NCBI GenBank assembly: GCA_947625835.1
Contig: CANQPY010000001.1
Location: 1 to 64,000, forward strand
Length of the DNA stretch: 64,000 bases
Source: an uncultured Clostridia bacterium
Lineage (GTDB): Bacteria; Bacillota; Clostridia; TANB77; CAG-508
Direction of reading: 5' to 3'
The position numbers and the translations under genes were made by a program. The notes below the pieces were generated by a model, which saw only the letters and a list, made by a program, of their open reading frames with translations, ran no database searches and was not told the DNA's origin. Below, piece by piece: positions 32,094 through 60,785 of the stretch (its first letter is position 1; each line of letters starts with the position of its first letter).

Positions 32094-33743
32094 ATGGGTA
32101 GGAAACCTAAACAAATACCTCAAGAATCATTATGGGGTGAAGAATTTAATTTACCACCACCTCAAGAAGAAGTAAAAAAAGTATTGAAAAAAGTAAATGA
32201 TAAAACAGATGCCCAAAAAATCAAATCTAAATTAACACCACTATCAGAGAAAATAGAAATTATTTCCCAAAATGTACATAAAGTATTAGGCCATTACAAA
32301 GACCAAATGGTAGTAATTAGGGATAAAGAAACCTTCCATAATTACATTAGTGCGGCTATTGAGCAAGGAATAATTGCTATAGATACTGAAACAGACAATA
32401 CAGTTGATACAGTGGCTTGTACTTTAATGGGTTTGGTTATATATACTCCAGGCCAAAAAAATGGATATGTGCCTGTACACCATGTAGATTATGTAACAAA
32501 TGAACTACTCCCAAACCAACTAACAGAAAAAGATATAAGAGAAGAACTAAACAGATTATTAGACAATAACACATATATAATAATGCACAACGCGATATTC
32601 GATATTCAAGTTATTTATACTACATGTGGTGTTTTCCTTCCATGCCACTGGGATACAATGGTGGGCGCAAGATTATTAAATGAGAATGAAAAATCATCAG
32701 GCTTAAAATATCAATATATAGATAAAATTGACCCTAACCAGCAAAAATATTCGATTGAGGAACTATTTGAAGGCTTATCATATGCTATTTTTCCTCCAGA
32801 ATTGTTTGCATATTATGCCTCAACTGATGGATATATGACCTATAAACTATATGAATATCAGGTAGAAGCATTTAAGGACCCAGAACAAGCAGGAATGTTT
32901 AGGATATTCAGAGAAACAGAAATGAATATCATTCCTATCTTGGCCAAAATGCAATTAAAAGGTGTAGCTTTTGACCACGATTATCAAGCACGACTATCTA
33001 AAAAATATAATAAAATATATGAAGAATGTGATGCTTTAGTAATGGAAGAACTACACAAATTTGATGATATAGTAGCCAAATGGAGATTAACACCAGAGGC
33101 TAATTACAAACCTCTCAATAGAAAGGGGGATGGGTTTAATAAATCCAAAAATGAGCAATTAGAAGATCCAATTAGTGCAGATTCACCCACGCAACTAGCA
33201 ATATTGCTATATGACATATTAAAAGCACCTGTAGTATCTAAAGATAAGCCAAGAGGTACAGGGGTAGAAGAACTAAAAGCTTTACAAGCCAAGCTAAATT
33301 TACCTCTAATAGATCTCATATTAAAGAAAAGAAATATTCAAAAATTACTAAATACATTTGTAGATAAACTACCTGGAGATGTAAGTAAAGTGGATGATAG
33401 AGTTCATGCAAGCTTCGGTTCTGTCATGACTGACACGGGCCGTTTCAACTCTTCATCGCCTAATTTGCAAAATATTCCCGCTAAGAATAAAGAGATTCGT
33501 TCAGTTTTTTGTGCAGGTAGAGCACAAGAAATAGAAAAAATATTTGATGGTTTCTTACATCTATATGATTATGATGAAGTAGAAACCCAAAGAGGTTGGG
33601 TAAAAGCAAAAGATCTAAAAACAACAGATTCATTGGTAGTAGAAGATGGCATCCTTAAAATTGCGTCTATTAGAGATCTAAATGGTATAATTCAAGTGTT
33701 CCCAGAAGAGGAAGAAAATAAAGGAGTGGAACATGCAGCATAA
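32094..33743 (+). CDS. DNA polymerase I (family A), N-terminal polypeptide: 3'-5' exonuclease and part of polymerase domain
   Basis: GIIAIDTETDNT...IIMHNAIFDIQVI exo motifs; SFGSVMTDTGRFNSSSPNLQNIPAKNKEIRSVF polymerase region; ends before motif A. Confidence 0.85.
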   Translation: MGRKPKQIPQESLWGEEFNLPPPQEEVKKVLKKVNDKTDAQKIKSKLTPLSEKIEIISQNVHKVLGHYKDQMVVIRDKETFHNYISAAIEQGIIAIDTETDNTVDTVACTLMGLVIYTPGQKNGYVPVHHVDYVTNELLPNQLTEKDIREELNRLLDNNTYIIMHNAIFDIQVIYTTCGVFLPCHWDTMVGARLLNENEKSSGLKYQYIDKIDPNQQKYSIEELFEGLSYAIFPPELFAYYASTDGYMTYKLYEYQVEAFKDPEQAGMFRIFRETEMNIIPILAKMQLKGVAFDHDYQARLSKKYNKIYEECDALVMEELHKFDDIVAKWRLTPEANYKPLNRKGDGFNKSKNEQLEDPISADSPTQLAILLYDILKAPVVSKDKPRGTGVEELKALQAKLNLPLIDLILKKRNIQKLLNTFVDKLPGDVSKVDDRVHASFGSVMTDTGRFNSSSPNLQNIPAKNKEIRSVFCAGRAQEIEKIFDGFLHLYDYDEVETQRGWVKAKDLKTTDSLVVEDGILKIASIRDLNGIIQVFPEEEENKGVEHAA

Positions 33744-35160
33744 AATAAAAATTAGAAAACCAGAAAAGAAACTAGTTGGGGGTGATTAAATGAAGTCCCT
33801 ATGTGTAGAGATATGCATAGGTATCCCATTGAATTGCTGGAAACTCCTAACGTAAAGCCGAGGACAACCAGCAGCCAAGCCTCTTTACTGAGGAAGGTTC
33901 AACGACTATCTCGCAAGAGAGTAGAAAGTAAGTACTTTCGAAGTGGTGGGTATCCATAATAAATGGATAAAGATATAGTCTAAACACCTGTGAAAATAGG
34001 TGGGGATAAAAATAATTATCCCATTATAGTGTAACGAACTATAATAAATGCATGTGTTCTCTCAACTAGAAGTAAAAACTGCAGTCTATAGTTCCAATGA
34101 TCCTGACATGCGTAAGACATATGAAGATGGTCTAGACTTGTATTCATTAGTTGGTTCCATGGCATATAATAAAAAATATGAAGAATGCTTGGAATTTTAT
34201 CCTGAAGGAACTGAACTAGAAATAGAAGGTAAAAAAATAGTTTGCGGGCGAAAAGAAATAACTAACGAAATTGGAAAAAAATATCGTCAATCTTCAAAAT
34301 CTATTCTGATAGGTAGTATATATCAAAGAGGTGTTCCCTCTATTGCTGAACAAATAAAGAAAACCCCAGAAGAAACAAAAGAAATAATGGATAATTTCTA
34401 CAAGGGTTTTCCTACCATGACTAAATGGTTTGAGGATAGTAAGAAATTTGCTTTAAAATATGGATACATGGATAATGCGGTTGGCAGAAGAAGAAGACTG
34501 CCTGCAGCATTGCTCCCCAAATATTCCATTACTACCTCAGTAACATCAGGTTCAGAAGGTTTTAATCCATTACTAGGGTGCAGCAACAAAATAGATACCA
34601 CTTTAATTGATAAATATAGAAAAAAATTAGAAGAAAGAGAATTCATATCTGCTAAAGATTATGAAGAGATTAAAAAGCAGGCAAAAGCTGAAGGTGTGGA
34701 GATTCACAATAATGGTGGACTGATAGCACAGGCGTTGAGGCAGTGTGTAAATTTCCAAGCTCAGAGCTTGGGCGCGGATATAGTCAAATTCGCAATGATT
34801 TTAGCAGATAAAGATCCAATTCTTAAAGATCTTGGTTTTGAAATGTTAATCCAAGTCCATGATGAGCTGATTGGTGAATGCCCTGCAGAAAATGCAGATA
34901 AAGTAGCAAAAAGATTATCAGAATTAATGTCCTCAACTGCGGAAAAAATGACAGATAATATTCCTTTTCCGGTAGATTGTTATGAAGTAAATAATTGGTA
35001 TGAAGATGAATTAAATACTTCTCTTCAAACACTGATGATGCATCATAAAGAACTATCTCAAGAAGACTTATATAAATTAGCATGTGAAGAACACCAAGAA
35101 TTACTTCCAGAAGCTATCCATGATGTAATATTTGAGGGAAAAGAATTAAGAATTTCTTAG
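33733..35160 (+). CDS. DNA polymerase I, C-terminal polypeptide, join(33733..33786,34057..35160)
   Basis: AAAGGAG-N6-ATG33733 gives MQHKIKIRKPEKKLVGGD|FSQLEVK across the intron; then FYKGFPTMTKWFEDSKKFA, VNFQAQSLGADIV, IQVHDELIGECP. Confidence 0.75.
33787..34056 (+). ncRNA. Group I self-splicing intron (270 nt, no ORF)
   Basis: Core-like elements AATTGCTGGAAACTCC, GGTTCAACGACTAT ... AAGATATAGTCT (P7 strands), terminal hairpins CACCTgtgaaaatAGGTG, GGGATAAaaataaTTATCCC, TATAGTgtaacgaACTATA; U before 5' site, G at 3' end; splicing restores GGD|FSQ. Confidence 0.88.
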
Positions 35161-35218: not shown

Positions 35219-35380
35219 ATGGATAAAAGACTTATTAATTTTGAAATAGATGAGGAACTAAGAAAGAAAATAAAGAAAGAAGCGTATGATTTAGATTTAT
35301 CTATTTCTGCAGTACTTAGGCATATCATAGAAAATTATTTTAATGCTAAGGAAGAGAAAGATGAGAGTGTCAGGATTTGA
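35219..35380 (+). CDS. Ribbon-helix-helix (Arc/CopG-like) protein, 53 aa
   Basis: MDKRLINFEIDEELRKKIKKEAYDLDLSISAVLRHIIENYFNAKEEKDESVRI; AAGGAG RBS; not in ORF track because short. Confidence 0.75.
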   Translation: MDKRLINFEIDEELRKKIKKEAYDLDLSISAVLRHIIENYFNAKEEKDESVRI

Positions 35381-37301
35381 AGCGCTTGTAGATAGGATAA
35401 CCAAAGAAGAATTATACCAATATGTAGTGGTAGAACGCCATACCAATAGAGAAGCAAAACAACATTTTAATATTGGGTCTAGTGATACTCTTCTGAAACT
35501 TTTAAAATATTATGGGTTAAAAAAACCCACGAAGAAAGAAATATTACTTACCAAGGCATCAAAGGAAGAACTTTACCAATATTATATAGTTGAAAACCAT
35601 ACATTTAAGGAGTGCATAGAAAAATTCAATTTGGGTAGTTTCCCACAACTTAAAAAACTATGTAACTACTACAATATTGTTAAAAATGAGCCTATAGAAG
35701 AGATAATAAAAAGAGTACCTAAAAATGAAATAATTAGATATTATATAGAAGAAAAACACAGCCATGATGAAACTCTTGAATATTTTAATTTAGGTGCTGA
35801 TGCTTTTTATTATCTTTTAAAGCTATATGATATAGTTAAAGAAAGATTCAATTGGGGAAAATTTCAAAATAAACCCACAAAAGAAGCATTATATAATTTA
35901 TATGTTGTACAAAATAAAACAGCGATAGATATATCCGCAGAATATAACATAAGTAAAGGATTAATTATTCGACTTCTCAAAGAATATGGTATAAGCTTAA
36001 AAACCATGTCAGAAAATGTCAGGTTGGGTAGAGAAAAAGTTTATAAATTATATGGATCTAAAGAAAATTACTGTAAAGCAACAAACAATAAAGTACAGCA
36101 AACTATGCTAAAAAAGTATGGTTTTAATACATATTCTCAGATGCCTGATTATAATGATAGAGTTAAATCAACTAACTTGAAAAAATATGGCGTAGAGTAC
36201 TATACCCAATCTCAAGAGAATAGAGATAAAATTAGTGAAAAACTAAAAGAAAAAATTAATGAATTAGGGTATGCAAAACTAAGTCAAGCCTCATTAGATG
36301 AAAAATTGCTCAAATTACTATATAATGAAGAGGAATCTGTAAAATTCCTAAATACATTTAAAGAACCCCCCACACCATTTCAACTTCAACAACAATTTAA
36401 TTGTGGACAAACAGTTATAAGCCATTGGATAGAAAGATGCAATTTACAACCCTATGTAAGCTATGTGGTAAGCAACCCTGAAAAAGAAATAGAAGAATAT
36501 CTAAAATCCCTAAATGTTTGTTACCAAATGCACAGTAGGCTTACTTTAGATAGTAAGAAAGAGCTAGATTTTTATCTGCCCGACTACAATATAGGTATCG
36601 AATTTAATGGTACTTATTGGCATTCAAGTTTGATTAAAGATAAAAATTACCATTATAATAAATCAATAGAGGCTGAAACTAAAGGAATAAGAATAATTCA
36701 TATTTGGGAGTATGAGTGGGAAGATTCAAAACAACGTGAGAAAATATTATCTCTCCTAAAGATAGCATGTAATAAAGTAAATACAAAAATTTACGCACGT
36801 AATTGTACAATTAAAGAAATTACAAATAGAGAAGCAAAACCTTTTAACGAAGCCAACCATTTACAGGGGCATAGAAATGCCCAAGTAACCTATGGTTTAT
36901 TTTATAATGATAGATTAGTACAACTAATGTCCTTTAGTAGAACTAGGTATAATAAAAACCTAACTGGTGGTAATGATTGGGAAATAATCAGAGGATGTCC
37001 GGCAAGCAACAACATAGTTGTTGGTGGTGTAAGTAAGCTATTTAAACATTTTCTTAAAGAATACAATCCAGATCATGTTTTTAGTTACTGTGATTTCAAT
37101 AAGTTCGATGGTAGAGGCTATGAAGCAATTGGTATGAAATTTGCAGGGTATACTGGACCAGATATGAAATGGTTACTACAAAATGGCCAGGTAGTTTCTA
37201 GACAGCCTTCAAAGCATAAAGAACTGAAAGAGATCTCTAAAGCTCAGCTTTGGGGGGCAGGCAGTAAAAAATATATGTGGGAGAAACCTACGCAGAACTA
37301 A
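35361..37301 (+). CDS. Homing-type endonuclease: HTH-repeat array + KYG motifs + Vsr/PD-(D/E)xK nuclease
   Basis: Four ~45-aa repeats (KEELYQYYIVENHTxxE..xFNLG), two LKKYG..xxSQ motifs, KELDFYLPDYNIGIEFNGTYWHSS nuclease motif. ATG35361 overlaps RHH stop. Confidence 0.75.
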   Translation: MRVSGFEALVDRITKEELYQYVVVERHTNREAKQHFNIGSSDTLLKLLKYYGLKKPTKKEILLTKASKEELYQYYIVENHTFKECIEKFNLGSFPQLKKLCNYYNIVKNEPIEEIIKRVPKNEIIRYYIEEKHSHDETLEYFNLGADAFYYLLKLYDIVKERFNWGKFQNKPTKEALYNLYVVQNKTAIDISAEYNISKGLIIRLLKEYGISLKTMSENVRLGREKVYKLYGSKENYCKATNNKVQQTMLKKYGFNTYSQMPDYNDRVKSTNLKKYGVEYYTQSQENRDKISEKLKEKINELGYAKLSQASLDEKLLKLLYNEEESVKFLNTFKEPPTPFQLQQQFNCGQTVISHWIERCNLQPYVSYVVSNPEKEIEEYLKSLNVCYQMHSRLTLDSKKELDFYLPDYNIGIEFNGTYWHSSLIKDKNYHYNKSIEAETKGIRIIHIWEYEWEDSKQREKILSLLKIACNKVNTKIYARNCTIKEITNREAKPFNEANHLQGHRNAQVTYGLFYNDRLVQLMSFSRTRYNKNLTGGNDWEIIRGCPASNNIVVGGVSKLFKHFLKEYNPDHVFSYCDFNKFDGRGYEAIGMKFAGYTGPDMKWLLQNGQVVSRQPSKHKELKEISKAQLWGAGSKKYMWEKPTQN

Positions 37302-37418: not shown

Positions 37419-38264
37419 ATGCAGATAACAGACGATGATCTTTACTTCTATTATGGAAGCAAATATTTAAACCTAAATAGTAGATATAAACAAGCGCCAG
37501 ATTTATTTAATGAGGAAAGAAAAAAGCTATCTAAGGGAGGAGGCTCTAGAGAAGACATAATAGCATATGCTAAAAAATCTCTAAGGGCCCCGCTGCCCAA
37601 TGAACAAGAATATATTAAGAGGGAAGATTGGCTTCCCTTTGAAGATTTAACTGGTGAAAGACAAGAAGTATTAGATAACCCTATTTGGAATAAAACTCAA
37701 AAATTTATATTTGAAAATTTTAAACCCTCATCTACTTCTCTTATTATTCAAAGATGCAGCAGCAGAAAGCCTTATATAGATAATGGTAATTACAAATATA
37801 CCAAATTATTGCAGGAACACAAACTATGCGACCTTGCTGTTGCTTCATTAGAGATAATTCCTATAAATTTTACCATTTATTATCCATTTAGGCAGTATGA
37901 TTGGAATGATAAATTTGAAACTCCAGAACTGACAGAATATGCTATAAATAGAAAGACAAATAGAATTATCCAATTTATAGATCATTTTGGGTATCAAAAG
38001 ATACTTATTCTAGGGCCAGGGTTTGAACATGACACTTATTATAAAACCATTACAGATAAACTAAAAGAACATTATGGAACTTCAAAGGAAATTCATTTTG
38101 TAATGGATGAAGAAACGACAAATAAGTGTATCGAAACTATGAATGGGTACAAAGGATTAGCAAAAGTCAGATACCCCAATCTTAAACCTACTCAAGAAAG
38201 AATTTGCAGTTTGTTAGGGGTAGAAAACCCTCAAAAGAAGATTGAGAAGGTAAAATTATGGTAA
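37419..38264 (+). CDS. DUF5591/ArcS-like protein, possible 7-deazaguanine-related
   Basis: LIIQRCSSRKPY...LAVASLEIIPINFTIYYPFRQYDW recalls the CSxxKPYS...S..G.vPrE...YP..hYD pattern of ArcS/ArcTGT-associated domains. Confidence 0.5.
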   Translation: MQITDDDLYFYYGSKYLNLNSRYKQAPDLFNEERKKLSKGGGSREDIIAYAKKSLRAPLPNEQEYIKREDWLPFEDLTGERQEVLDNPIWNKTQKFIFENFKPSSTSLIIQRCSSRKPYIDNGNYKYTKLLQEHKLCDLAVASLEIIPINFTIYYPFRQYDWNDKFETPELTEYAINRKTNRIIQFIDHFGYQKILILGPGFEHDTYYKTITDKLKEHYGTSKEIHFVMDEETTNKCIETMNGYKGLAKVRYPNLKPTQERICSLLGVENPQKKIEKVKLW

Positions 38265-40138: not shown

Positions 40139-40936
40139 ATGAAGTGTGTAGTAAGTTTAAGTGGTGGTAGAGATAGTGCTACCTGCCTTGGTGTTGCAGT
40201 TGATAAATATGGTGCAGAGAATGTGTATGCCATGGGATTTGAATATGGTAGTAAACATCCTCAAGAACTAGAGCATGCAAAGAAAATTGCAGCCTATTAT
40301 AATGTACCTTATCAAATTGTTACTATCAACCCAGAAATTTTTAATGGTTCCACATGTACCTTACTTCAAGGATCAGAAAAAGAAGTACAAAAAGGTAAGA
40401 CATATACTGAAATACTAGCAGAAAAAGAAGGTAAAGTTGATACATATGTACCCTTCAGAAATGGTTTATTTTCAGCATATGTGGCAGCTAAAGCGGAAAG
40501 TTTAGTACAGCAATTTGATGAAGATGTAGTAGTTATGTTAGGGCAGCACGCAGATGATAGTGGCTATTACATTGATGAACATGGTAATGAAATGTTAGAT
40601 GAATCAAAAGCTGCCTATCCAGATTGTACAGTTTCATTTGTAAAAGCATTTGAAAAAGTGGTGGAAGTTAGTTCAGTAGGTAGAGTTCATTACGAAGCAC
40701 CCTTTGTTAAGATGCACAAATGGGAACTAATAAAAATGGGGTTAGGGCTTAAGAAGAGGGTTCCATATGAACTGTGCTTTAGTTGTTACGACCCTGTTTA
40801 TGAAAATGGCGAATGGGTGGAATGTAAGAACTGTGCTACTTGTTTAGATGTAAAACAAGCAATGGATAAAACACTTGATAAAATTCAAAGTGAAAATCCA
40901 GAACTATATGAAGAAGTAAAATATTTAAGAAATTAA
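40139..40936 (+). CDS. queC: 7-cyano-7-deazaguanine synthase
   Basis: VSLSGGRDSATCLGVAV PP-loop; C-terminal CFSCYDP...CKNCATC Zn motif. Confidence 0.85.
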   Translation: MKCVVSLSGGRDSATCLGVAVDKYGAENVYAMGFEYGSKHPQELEHAKKIAAYYNVPYQIVTINPEIFNGSTCTLLQGSEKEVQKGKTYTEILAEKEGKVDTYVPFRNGLFSAYVAAKAESLVQQFDEDVVVMLGQHADDSGYYIDEHGNEMLDESKAAYPDCTVSFVKAFEKVVEVSSVGRVHYEAPFVKMHKWELIKMGLGLKKRVPYELCFSCYDPVYENGEWVECKNCATCLDVKQAMDKTLDKIQSENPELYEEVKYLRN

Positions 40937-40961
40937 AATTTGGAGGCAAAATAAATAAATT

Positions 40962-41759
40962 ATGGAAAAGGTAAAGAACTTTTTTGTAAGCGTAGGAAGA
41001 AAAATCAAGCAGGGCTTCTACAATGAATTTGTAGGTACGTGGAAGGGAATTACGAAGGAAAAGATCAGTTTTTCCATTGTATTACTTGTAATTGCTAATA
41101 TTTTCTTCTTATTAATTAGTAATATTATTGCGGTTAAGACAATAGTATTTGGTAGAGTAAATGGGTTACAGTTTTCTGTGCCCTGCGCCGTATTATGCTA
41201 TAGTTTTTCGATTATTATCAGTGATTTGTTAGCAGAGTTAGATTTCAAATGGACACGTCGTAGTTGCCATATAGGTTTCTTTTTGAACCTATTAATGGTC
41301 GCTATTTTCGAACTTTCAATCGTAATTCCAGGCGAAGTAGGTGGTTTCCAAGAAGGTTTAGGGGTATTAGGTACTACTTGGTTTATGCTCATCGGAAGCG
41401 TGCTCAGCTTCTACATTGGTGATTTGGTGAACGATAATGTATTTAAGAAACTTAGGAATAAAGATGGTGAAGGTAATGGTAAATTAATTAAACGCTGTAT
41501 GCTAAGTACAGTATTTGGTCAATTATTGGATGCTACAATTTTCATTTTCTTAAGCCTTCAACTTCTTCCAGGCTTATTTATGGAAAGTGGGCCATTTACA
41601 GCACTTAATTCATCACTTGCAGATCCTATTAGCTGGGCTAATATGGGAGTTATGATTGGTCTACAATGGGTAATAAAGGTACTTATTGAGTTTATAGTAT
41701 CACCCCTTGTAATTCTTATTTGTAATAAGTATAAGAAATCTCATCAGGAAGAACTCTAA
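40962..41759 (+). CDS. yhhQ: Queuosine precursor transporter-like (YhhQ/VUT family)
   Basis: Hydrophobic; LLVIANIFFLLISNIIAVKTIVF...CAVLCYSFSIIISDLLAE...GQLLDATIFIFLS. Confidence 0.75.
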   Translation: MEKVKNFFVSVGRKIKQGFYNEFVGTWKGITKEKISFSIVLLVIANIFFLLISNIIAVKTIVFGRVNGLQFSVPCAVLCYSFSIIISDLLAELDFKWTRRSCHIGFFLNLLMVAIFELSIVIPGEVGGFQEGLGVLGTTWFMLIGSVLSFYIGDLVNDNVFKKLRNKDGEGNGKLIKRCMLSTVFGQLLDATIFIFLSLQLLPGLFMESGPFTALNSSLADPISWANMGVMIGLQWVIKVLIEFIVSPLVILICNKYKKSHQEEL

Positions 41760-41860: not shown

Positions 41861-41878
41861 GTGCTAAATTAGATGAAA
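41861..41878 (+). promoter_or_regulatory. RHH operator-like motif GTGCTAAATTAGATGAAA
   Basis: 40 nt before RHH ATG41903. Confidence 0.55.
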
Positions 41879-41902
41879 ATGCCTTTTGAAGGAGATAATA
41901 AA

Positions 41903-42064
41903 ATGGATAAACATGCAGTAAACTTTGAACTTCCCGAAAATATTTTCCTTCAGCTTAAACAATTAGCAGAAGATAATGATAGAAGTATCGCTTCTCAAAT
42001 AAGAACAATCATTATCTCCTACTTGAAGGAGAATAATAGTGACGCACCAGGAATTCAAAACTAA
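41903..42064 (+). CDS. Ribbon-helix-helix (Arc-like) protein
   Basis: MDKHAVNFELPENIFLQLKQLAEDNDRSIASQIRTIIISYLKENN; GGAG RBS; listed ORF starts upstream at 41873. Confidence 0.75.
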   Translation: MDKHAVNFELPENIFLQLKQLAEDNDRSIASQIRTIIISYLKENNSDAPGIQN

Positions 42065-57103: not shown

Positions 57104-57628
57104 ATGTTTAGAAAAAATAAGAAAGAAATTGTTAAGTTAGGAGTGCTTGAAGGTACAGATTGTGACCACCTTAAATGGAAGAGCAAAAACAAAGCAATGA
57201 GTTGGAATTTTGCTTATTATATGCCTGTACTAATGAGAGATGCCCTTAGAGAAATGGCTTCAAACCTTCATAGTTGTCCTAGTTGGCTAGCAGAAGAATT
57301 TGATGATGATGTAGATGCTGCGTGTGTAGAGTGGAGTAAAATACTAAATAAAATTGCAGATAAATTTGATTATGCTTCCAGAATATGTAATACTTTAGAT
57401 TTTCTATCTAAGGAAGATCAAATGAAATTGGATGAATACTATTCAAAAGATCACTATGTTGACTATAAAGAAAATAAAGATGGAAGTGTTCAATATTCTT
57501 TAGAACCTATTCCTGATTATATAGAAGAAATCCATAAGAAAGAAGATGTAATTGCAGAAGATATGCAGAATAAATTAAAAGAGGCGCTCCAGGAACTTGG
57601 AGAAATTTGGTACGACATATGGGATTAA
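57104..57628 (+). CDS. Hypothetical protein
   Basis: 174-aa ORF. Confidence 0.45.
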   Translation: MFRKNKKEIVKLGVLEGTDCDHLKWKSKNKAMSWNFAYYMPVLMRDALREMASNLHSCPSWLAEEFDDDVDAACVEWSKILNKIADKFDYASRICNTLDFLSKEDQMKLDEYYSKDHYVDYKENKDGSVQYSLEPIPDYIEEIHKKEDVIAEDMQNKLKEALQELGEIWYDIWD

Positions 57629-57771
57629 ACAATATTGTAATTGTTGGGGGAGGCCCAGCAGGTATTTTTTGCGCATACGAATCAGTACAGCAGGGGTATA
57701 GTGGAAAAATCACAATCCTTGAAATGGGCAACCTAATTGAAAATAGAAAATGCCCCAAGGATAGAATATGA
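57619..57771 (+). pseudogene. Truncated FAD flavoprotein N-terminus
   Basis: MGLNNIVIVGGGPAGIFCAYESVQQGYSGKITILEMGNLIENRKCPKDRI* aligns with first ~48 aa of ORF 59400 and stops. Confidence 0.75.
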
Positions 57772-57851: not shown

Positions 57852-58010
57852 ATGAAAAAAATATTAAATTTTGAAGTAGAAGAAGAAGTCATCCTTCAGT
57901 TAAAGAAGATAGCGAAAGAAGATGAAAGAAATCTTTCAGCAGAAATTAGATTTATTATTCTTTCCTATCTAAAGGACAGAATGAAGAATGGCAAATTTGA
58001 AGAACAATAA
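57852..58010 (+). CDS. Ribbon-helix-helix (Arc-like) protein, 52 aa
   Basis: MKKILNFEVEEEVILQLKKIAKEDERNLSAEIRFIILSYLKDRMKNGKFEEQ. Confidence 0.75.
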   Translation: MKKILNFEVEEEVILQLKKIAKEDERNLSAEIRFIILSYLKDRMKNGKFEEQ

Positions 58011-59403
58011 AAACATACCAAGGCTAATATCTATAATAAGTGAGCAGGAACTATTTAATTACTGGATAAAAGAAAAGCACACCCCAAAAGAAACCCAAGA
58101 GCATTTTAATATAAGCTGTTGGGAGTTTAATCTATTATCTAACTATTACCATATAAAACAAAGAGGAAATTCTCTTAATAATTATATAAGATCAGTATCT
58201 AGAGAAAATTTATATAGTTACTATTTTGAAGAAAACCACTCCGCAACAGATACCATGAAATATTTTAACATAGATGAACACATCCTTGAACAACTATGTA
58301 GATATTATGATTTACCAGATAAACGATCCTACAATAAAGATAAAATTTTAAAAGATTTAGATGAATTAGAAGTAGTTAATTACTATAAAAACCACTCCTA
58401 TTATAACACTATAGATCATTTTAATTTACGTACATGCTCGCATGTACTAGATACAATTATCGCAAAGTATGGTATACATAAAAGAGATGTTAAAAAGAAA
58501 AAATTTGAATCTTTTGATGAAATTATTGCTAGAGTATCTAAAGAAGAATTTTACCAATATTATATTGTAGAGAATCATGGTTATAGTGAAACTATAAAGC
58601 ATTTTAATCTCGGCAATCTTGATAAGGTACGTAATTATTATGGACTACATAAAAGACAATTTACTAAACATAATTTTATAAATATTGAACAATTTAAAAA
58701 ATTATATACTAAAGAAGAATTTATAAATTATTACATAATCCAAAACCATAGATTATTTGAAACTGCTGAACATTTTAATATATCTCAAGATACTTGTAAA
58801 TTATTAATAAGAGAATATGATGTAAGTAAGAAAAAGAAAGAATATTCCCATCTTTCTATGGTAAATTATAAACAAACTTGTCTTAACAAATACGGGGTTG
58901 AAAATTCTCTACAACTTAGAAAATGTAGAGATAATAATGAGCCATACCAAAGCGAACCCAATAAAAAATTTCAAAAATTATTGGAAGTTAAAGGATTGAC
59001 AAAAGATGAAACATTTATTTCAGAATTTGCATTAGAGGGCAAAAGATATGATTTTAAAATAGGTAATTATTTAGTAGAAGTTAATCCTTGGGCTACACAT
59101 AATATTACTTGGAAAAAATACTGTTTATCAAATAAAAATAGCTGGTCTAATTATATGTATAAAGAATACCATAGAGAAAAATCTTTATTAGCTCAAAAAT
59201 ATGGTTATAAATGCATATGTGTATGGGATTGGAGTGATAAAGAAAAAATAATAGAAAATATACTAAACAATACATTAAATATTAAAGATACTGGAGAAAT
59301 AAAACTACACTTATTTAATTATAAAACAAAAGAGATAGTATCAAGTACTGGTCCGTATGTTGTAGAAATTTGGGATGATGGGTTTGAATTGGAGGTAATA
59401 TGA
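57988..59403 (+). CDS. HTH-repeat array + PD-(D/E)xK-like endonuclease
   Basis: Five repeats of the same type as ORF 35361; CLNKYGVENSLQ motif; KRYDFKIGNYLVEVNPW nuclease-like segment. Start overlaps RHH gene. Confidence 0.7.
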   Translation: MANLKNNKNIPRLISIISEQELFNYWIKEKHTPKETQEHFNISCWEFNLLSNYYHIKQRGNSLNNYIRSVSRENLYSYYFEENHSATDTMKYFNIDEHILEQLCRYYDLPDKRSYNKDKILKDLDELEVVNYYKNHSYYNTIDHFNLRTCSHVLDTIIAKYGIHKRDVKKKKFESFDEIIARVSKEEFYQYYIVENHGYSETIKHFNLGNLDKVRNYYGLHKRQFTKHNFINIEQFKKLYTKEEFINYYIIQNHRLFETAEHFNISQDTCKLLIREYDVSKKKKEYSHLSMVNYKQTCLNKYGVENSLQLRKCRDNNEPYQSEPNKKFQKLLEVKGLTKDETFISEFALEGKRYDFKIGNYLVEVNPWATHNITWKKYCLSNKNSWSNYMYKEYHREKSLLAQKYGYKCICVWDWSDKEKIIENILNNTLNIKDTGEIKLHLFNYKTKEIVSSTGPYVVEIWDDGFELEVI

Positions 59404-60785
59404 ATAATATAATAATTGTTGGCGGTGGGAATGCTGCACTATTCTGTGCTTATGAACTAATTGAAAAAGGATTTAAGGGACAAGTCTCTATATTTGAAGA
59501 AGGAAAAGATTTAAAATATAGAGATTGCCCAAAATCTAAAGCTGGCAAATGTATTCATTGTAATATATGTAATATCACAGCTGGAGTGGCAGGTTGTGGT
59601 CCCAAAACGGATGCCAAGGTCTCATTATCTACAGCAGTGGGTGGTTATCTTCCCGAAATTTTAGGTGAAGAAAAAACCCAATCACTTATTAATTATATGG
59701 ATTCTATATTACTTAAGTTTGGAGCAGACCCTAAAGTTGAAGGCCTTGAAGATAATGAAGAAATAAGAGATATTAAGAGAAAATCAATTGCTGCGGGTCT
59801 TAAATTAGTAGATGATCCTATCAGGCATTTAGGTACAGAAAAATCTACAGAACTATACCAACGCCTTGAAGAATATTTAATATCAAAGAATATTAATATT
59901 ATACCCAACTCTAAAGTAACCGATCTAATTATTAAAAACAATAAATGTTCTGGGATGATTGTAAATGGTTCTACTGCCTATGTTGCGGATAAAATAATTG
60001 TAGCTGTGGGTAGAAGAGGCGCTTCATGGTTGGAAAATCAATGCAAATTACACAACATAAATAAATTGCCAGGTACTATGGATATTGGTGTTCGTGTAGA
60101 GTGCAGAAATGAGATTATGGAAAAAATTAATAAGTATTTTTACGAGGGAAAATTTATTGGCTATCCAGCCCCCTTTAGGGACAAAGTAAGAACATTCTGC
60201 CAAAACCCAGGGGGCTTTGTAGCGCAAGAGAACTATGAGGGAAACCTTGCTCTAGTTAATGGGCATTCTTATAAGGAATTAAAATCAAAAAATACCAACC
60301 TCTCAATTTTGGTAAGCCATAGTTTTACTACGCCTTTCGATCAACCTCTTCTTTACGCCCAGAAAATAGGTGAATTGACTAACATGCTGGCAAATGGAAG
60401 CATATTAGTTCAAAGATATGGTGATATCATATCTGGTAAGAGAACTTGGCAAAATGAGCTAGATAAATCCAATATTAAACCCACATTAATAGATGCTGTA
60501 GCAGGCGATATAACAGCAGCAATGCCTTACAGAACAATGACTGATATTGTAAATTTCATTCAAATGTTGGATAAAGTAGTTCCCGGGTTTGCTGCATATG
60601 AAACTCTCCTTTATAGTCCTGAGATAAAATTCTATTCAAATAGAGTAGCAATGGATGAACATCTAAATACAAATATTCAAAATCTTTATTGTATAGGGGA
60701 TGGCGCAGGAGTTACAAGAGGAATAGCTCAATCTGCAGCTAATGGAATTCAATGCGCTAGAGAAATTATGGGTGAGGTAGAATAA
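59400..60785 (+). CDS. FAD-dependent dehydrogenase/oxidoreductase
   Basis: IIIVGGGNAALFCAYEL; CPKSKAGKCIHCNICNITAGVAGCG; C-terminal YCIGDGAGVTRGIAQSAANG. Confidence 0.8.
   Translation: MNNIIIVGGGNAALFCAYELIEKGFKGQVSIFEEGKDLKYRDCPKSKAGKCIHCNICNITAGVAGCGPKTDAKVSLSTAVGGYLPEILGEEKTQSLINYMDSILLKFGADPKVEGLEDNEEIRDIKRKSIAAGLKLVDDPIRHLGTEKSTELYQRLEEYLISKNINIIPNSKVTDLIIKNNKCSGMIVNGSTAYVADKIIVAVGRRGASWLENQCKLHNINKLPGTMDIGVRVECRNEIMEKINKYFYEGKFIGYPAPFRDKVRTFCQNPGGFVAQENYEGNLALVNGHSYKELKSKNTNLSILVSHSFTTPFDQPLLYAQKIGELTNMLANGSILVQRYGDIISGKRTWQNELDKSNIKPTLIDAVAGDITAAMPYRTMTDIVNFIQMLDKVVPGFAAYETLLYSPEIKFYSNRVAMDEHLNTNIQNLYCIGDGAGVTRGIAQSAANGIQCAREIMGEVE

Follow-up and report, generated by a model that had tools for sequence, protein, structure and literature searches.

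The experimental precedent for collaborative homing is the F-CphI/psbA pair of cyanophage S-PM2, in which a free-standing endonuclease lies beside a group I intron-bearing gene (PMC6083498). In the 39-mobA-60 region of phage T4, an essential enzyme gene is fractured by a homing endonuclease gene, and gene 60, the second part, carries soon after its start a protected, recoded insert (a 50-nt bypass); it has been proposed that this insert is a protective intron that degenerated (PMC5009743). Of the T4 homing genes, segC shares 20 bp with the gene upstream of it and mobA shares 23 bp, an arrangement thought to limit their translation (PMC2988022). Hef of phage U5, which has Hef-like counterparts in jumbo and Campylobacter phages, targets nrdB (PMC2988022). 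Finally, I-Bth0305I and the other EDxHD endonucleases are phage-borne members of a homing family that combine a Vsr-like core with helical DNA-binding modules.

The window analyzed here, 64,000 nucleotides long, is the beginning of a 198.9-kb contig that carries a dozen group I introns and that, judged from its genes, is probably a phage. The locus of interest contains a nuclease ORF overlapped at its start by a gene for a ribbon-helix-helix (RHH) protein (Table 1), as described by the initial annotation. That annotation had missed that the nuclease is a homing endonuclease with a C-terminal Mom-like GNAT domain, and also the gene upstream, which encodes a family-A DNA polymerase split into two parts, polA-a and polA-b. 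Since the endonuclease ORF begins 183 nt after polA-b, which holds an RF00028 intron, the locus has the arrangement expected for collaborative homing. As in F-CphI/psbA, a free-standing endonuclease adjoins a group I intron-bearing gene, but the nuclease is of the EDxHD rather than the Endo VII type, the gene is polA rather than psbA, and it is also fractured. The Vsr-like core, helical DNA-binding modules and phage setting are those of I-Bth0305I and its family, from which the window protein differs in being free-standing, in its longer array of helix-turn-helix (HTH)-like repeats, in an additional Mom-like GNAT domain and in the RHH gene overlapping its start. It shares its nuclease and C-terminal region with Hef and Hef-like proteins, whereas its N-terminal repeats differ and its likely target is polA rather than nrdB. 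The polA genes of other phages resemble T4 39-mobA-60 in that an essential enzyme gene is fractured by a homing gene and its second part has, close to its beginning, a protected, apparently recoded insert. They differ from T4 in having gaps of 4-10 nt and homing genes that mostly belong to the GIY-YIG family, and the insert in the window is a group I intron.

Table 1. Features of the polA-endonuclease locus (positions in the window) and loci of other phages with a motif A stop insert.
Feature	Coordinates	Strand	Basis
polA-a: 3'-5' exonuclease and start of polymerase domain, ends in part of inserted beta-domain, then stop	32094..33743	+	Pfam DNA_pol_A_exo1, DNA_pol_A
polA-a tail (~74 aa): most of ~80-aa beta-domain inserted before motif A	33519..33740	+	contiguous in L033, L042, L064
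polA-b exon 1, MQHKIKIRKPEKKLVGGD: leader (inserted domain's last strand) to motif A aspartate	33733..33786	+	sequence; homologous leaders in relatives
Group I intron without ORF, interrupts motif A between GGD and FSQLE	33787..34056	+	Rfam RF00028
polA-b exon 2: rest of polymerase domain	34057..35160	+	Pfam DNA_pol_A, E 2e-34
53-aa RHH protein, possible Arc/CopG-like repressor	35219..35380	+	Pfam RHH_1, PHROG
Homing endonuclease ORF (predicted)	35343..37301	+	HTH-like repeats, DUF7487, EDxHD/Vsr-like nuclease, C-terminal Mom-like GNAT domain
Motif A stop insert: L005, L006, L034-L036, L044, L047-L049, L056, L066, L069, L071, L074, L079, L080, L094, L096, L098, L101, L111, L185-L212			

Read from position 35343, the endonuclease ORF encodes 652 aa. 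The alternative ATG at 35361, which would give 646 aa (~650 aa with either start), is the likelier one, as it has a better Shine-Dalgarno sequence, AAGGAAGAG, and leaves a 20-bp overlap with the RHH gene. The ORF has homologs and no interruptions, and is therefore not a chance frame. The two LKKYG motifs and the nuclease motif LDFYLPDYNIGIEFNGTYWHSS reported by the initial annotation are all present. Of the four ~45-aa repeats also described there, three are strong (residues 18-62, 71-116, and 124-168; pairwise z 12-18 against shuffles), whereas the fourth, at ~186-230, is degenerate and was judged by eye. As assessed by AlphaFold, using 46 relatives as input (mean pLDDT 81.9 overall), the repeats are three-helix HTH-like units with pLDDT mostly 75-90. 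Together with the profile matches, this model agrees with the proposed HTH-like array joined to a Vsr-like nuclease.

The nuclease domain spans residues 378-475, in which D409, E420, G423, H427, H437, and K440 are invariant among the 46 relatives, the residues being placed by this alignment rather than residue by residue on 3R3P. A profile of the same relatives matches PDB 3R3P, annotated as a mobile intron protein (E 2.5e-5), which we take to be the catalytic domain of I-Bth0305I. When the single nuclease/C-terminal sequence was used, by phmmer or structure search, 3R3P was not matched and only noise was returned. The protein also falls in PHROG 3339, "homing endonuclease", over residues 84-630 (E 4e-83), and tblastn with its second half retrieved homing endonucleases of the Hef/EDxHD kind from phages of Klebsiella, Campylobacter, and Bacteroides. 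With genes annotated as hef, the similarity (31% over residues 170-628) covers both the nuclease and the C-terminal domain, as in other Hef-like proteins. With its conserved active-site residues and a Vsr-like core homologous to I-Bth0305I, the window protein is almost certainly, on the strength of its sequence, a homing endonuclease of the EDxHD/Hef kind.

The C-terminal domain (residues 481-650) has a GNAT fold, for which phage Mu Mom is the best structural match (8BV8, E 2e-5). Pfam Mom matches 11 of the 46 family members, with a best E of 3.7e-8; when the domain is compared directly with Mom alone, the match is weak. This GNAT domain may provide self-protection by DNA modification, e.g. 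of the phage's own target.

In the polymerase gene, polA-b starts at ATG 33733, overlapping the polA-a stop, with a Shine-Dalgarno sequence (AAAGGAG) upstream. The intron matches RF00028 at 33774-34002 with 89 bits (E 2e-21; fold z -7.0). Joining GAT (33784-33786) to TTC (34057-34059) restores the catalytic motif A, the best-conserved spot of the polymerase, without a gap, LVGGD being followed by FSQLEVK. From this protein continuity and a short P1/P10 we infer the intron boundaries, which predict a spliced polA-b junction of GGGGGTGAT joined to TTCTCTCAA. The polA-a tail has no Pfam match. It looked Hint-like by eye, but a split intein was rejected, as there is no Pfam intein/Hint match and three phage loci (L033, L042, and L064) carry tail and leader as one uninterrupted domain.

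The same fracture recurs in many phage relatives, with ~30 split genes among 84 loci having both polA parts. Split and unsplit genes are orthologous, since the primase-SSB-polA synteny upstream is kept in ~80-100 loci. Where the gene is split, polA-a ends in a tail of ~70 aa and polA-b begins with a leader that is short and basic; tail and leader together correspond to the single inserted domain of the three loci above. For L042, AlphaFold predicts this domain as a confident beta-domain (pLDDT mostly >90 there) in which the leader is the last strand, so that the fracture point is the hairpin turn of an accessory domain. In this model, the position of the fracture suggests a way for the two halves to assemble although they are made as separate chains. 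Most ORFs found inside the fracture encode GIY-YIG endonucleases; LAGLIDADG, HNH-like, and EDxHD enzymes also occur there, and motif A appears to be a hot spot, i.e. a repeated homing target. Two further interruptions of polA were seen. In L005 (7700-8000), the same polA has a second fracture, located at motif B and accompanied by a tail and an insert of its own, CTT[TAGCG]CTA. In L022 (3068-5413, minus strand), a fractured polA without motif A insert has an intein-like insertion after RQCVN in polA-b.

Among the closest IMG/VR matches of the window endonuclease, two lie between polA-a and polA-b (L005:5371-7200 and L111:3412-5235), and the L005 protein shares 66% identity with it over the nuclease/C-terminal region. 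In a tree of this region, the window endonuclease forms one clade with those of L005, L111, L107, L108, and L110 (support 99/91); the last three adjoin tail, terminase, or other structural genes. Linkage to insertion sites, on which the original proposal had been staked, is thus seen in the relatives inside polA and in the group I intron interrupting the neighboring polA. Because relatives lie inside fractured polA, polA is the likely target. The window endonuclease itself is 1.3 kb downstream of the intron, not in the fracture. Among the records covered by the searches, no close relative of the window phage was found, with or without this gene (best polA identity 43%), and no empty site for it was seen.

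We consider it reasonably probable that this is a polA-targeting endonuclease with intron protection, i.e. collaborative homing into polA. The endonuclease family, its domain anatomy, the fracture, the intron, and the relatives inside polA were computed directly; the inferred steps are that motif A is cut, that the intron protects it and is spliced out, and that the polymerase reassembles. In brief, the RHH-nuclease pair would be a free-standing homing cassette parked behind polA, in which the HTH-like repeats would read a long target and the Vsr-like EDxHD domain would cut it, most likely at motif A, a conserved site, in polA alleles that lack the intron and belong to co-infecting phages. If the break were repaired from the window genome, the fractured polA with its intron would be transferred along with the neighboring endonuclease gene. 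The motif A intron would shield the phage's own polA and splice out of the RNA, and the two polymerase halves would assemble via the inserted beta-domain that holds the fracture.

A possible, clearly less probable explanation is that the endonuclease targets its own insertion site (the junction between polA and the gene at 37419) or another gene, the intron-bearing polA being nearby incidentally. Its target may indeed differ, because its N-terminal DNA-binding part is unlike that of the polA-inserted endonucleases of L005 and L111, and because its closest relatives by path include endonucleases that adjoin structural or terminase genes, several with no intron or polA nearby. However, polA hosts two of its five nearest relatives, the window endonuclease adjoins polA, and motif A appears to be repeatedly targeted, all of which argue for homing into polA.

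The RHH protein scores just below the cut-off with Pfam RHH_1 (18.5 bits), and its PHROG match consists of Arc-like repressors. The overlap between its gene and the likelier endonuclease start resembles those of T4 segC and mobA (PMC2988022). A second RHH gene (57852-58010) precedes, with a 23-bp overlap, the nuclease of another cassette in the window (57852-59403), which has five HTH-like repeats and a diverged nuclease. This second cassette is flanked by a truncated copy of the start of an FAD oxidoreductase gene (57607-57771) and by a full oxidoreductase gene (59400-60785). A third RHH gene (41873-42064) overlaps no nuclease. In L063, an RHH gene precedes an HNH/NUMOD3 nuclease directly after polA. 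When a profile of the three RHH proteins was used to search upstream of the endonuclease's relatives, none was found. The suggested RHH partnership hence recurs in the window phage and in L063 but is not a general rule, and the RHH protein is not conserved with the endonuclease family in the way that the partners of a type II toxin-antitoxin system are. It is improbable that the pair is a phage-competition or defense nuclease restrained by the RHH protein (a toxin-antitoxin-like or anti-competitor module) instead of a homing element: RHH genes overlap nucleases twice in the window phage and once in L063, and homing endonucleases are able to exclude rival phages, but the RHH gene is missing upstream of the relatives and the nuclease falls in homing endonuclease families. 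Least probable of all is a decayed, inactive endonuclease left over once the intron was fixed since, although decay is common in homing endonucleases and the window intron has no ORF, the frame is open over 652 codons with all conserved catalytic residues.

Collaborative homing into polA, our preferred reading, can be set beside what is seen at motif A in other phages. In most split polA genes, motif A is further broken by a 4-10-nt insert that begins with a stop codon and has matching flanking codons, e.g. TCT[TAGG]TCA, TCG[TGAGT]TCG, TCT[TGAATGG]TCT, TCT[TAAA]TCA, AGT[T]AGT, and GAA[TAGCCT]GAG. Such an insert is found in at least 22 non-redundant split genes (Table 1) and in none of 49 unsplit ones, and on the polA tree it requires no fewer than 11 changes of state. 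Among the 17 inserts retrieved through protein similarity, the stop comes first in every one and the landing codon is synonymous with the take-off codon in 14. An empty and an occupied site can be compared in L090 (unsplit) and L096 (split, with a GIY-YIG gene and an insert), which are ~80% identical in DNA. These polA relatives have the form of T4 gene 60, i.e. a stop after the take-off codon, a matching landing codon, and a fractured gene, and the inserts are apparently candidate natural ribosomal stop-hops, as predicted from their sequence. Inserts of the Glu class are predicted to pair with the sequence preceding them, forming a hairpin that buries the take-off codon and the stop (z -2.2 to -4.0); this hairpin is not found in L034 or in the Ser example L074.

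Other explanations of the inserts were rejected. Pseudogenes or assembly errors are contradicted by the invariably leading stop, by landing codons that are synonymous in most cases yet frequently not exact copies, by polymerase ORFs that continue, and by the repeated changes on the tree. Constant-step frameshifting is ruled out by insert lengths that span all three frame classes, and stop reassignment fails to explain the frame-changing inserts of 4, 5, 7, 8, and 10 nt. Reassignment may account for the extra in-frame TAGs of L048 and L066, which occur at glutamine positions of polA-b (SQ*EPRL) and suggest TAG=Gln recoding. No group I intron was detected by Rfam in L034, L047, L057, L086, and others. 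Insertions in or near motif A of L057 (2286-2540), L086, and L020 are structured-intron-like with no Rfam family match, and may be introns that Rfam does not model.

The window polA has no such bypass insert, its place being held by the group I intron, at nearly the same motif A position. Endonucleases and motif A inserts are linked through the fracture, with which both co-occur, and several split genes have an insert but no homing endonuclease. On balance we favor the idea that motif A of phage polA repeatedly hosts a mobile cassette, in which a homing gene would fracture polA in the accessory domain and bring a protective insert, either a group I intron, as in the window, or a 4-10-nt element at which ribosomes would be programmed to hop across a stop from one matching codon to the other.

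Efficient ribosomal bypassing has so far been described in very few natural cases, T4 gene 60 and yeast mitochondria; according to the same 2016 review, shorter versions, in which the take-off and landing codons match, have long been presumed to exist, and no natural in-frame stop-hop was known (PMC5009743). The polA relatives offer dozens of candidate stop-hops, which cover three frame classes and come with an unsplit control that is closely related (L090 versus L096), and if hopping is true, a long-predicted kind of decoding becomes directly testable. These genes would then be a large natural stop-hop family, generalizing the T4 mobA-gene 60 cassette. The presence of an intron and a candidate bypass at nearly the same position in related polA genes, reminiscent of the degenerate-intron idea for T4 (PMC5009743), would support bypass elements replacing or deriving from introns. 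Relative to the open-access literature, the window endonuclease would add a new gene to collaborative homing, as well as an endonuclease carrying a Mom-like domain.

Group I introns are also clustered elsewhere. At least ten are found in ~9 kb of probable structural genes at locus L023 (G000:C1:183000-192300), together with EDxHD and GIY-YIG-like endonuclease ORFs. The window also contains, at 40139-41759, a phage-borne QueC gene and a Vut_1 transporter-like gene, which suggest a queuosine-type pathway.
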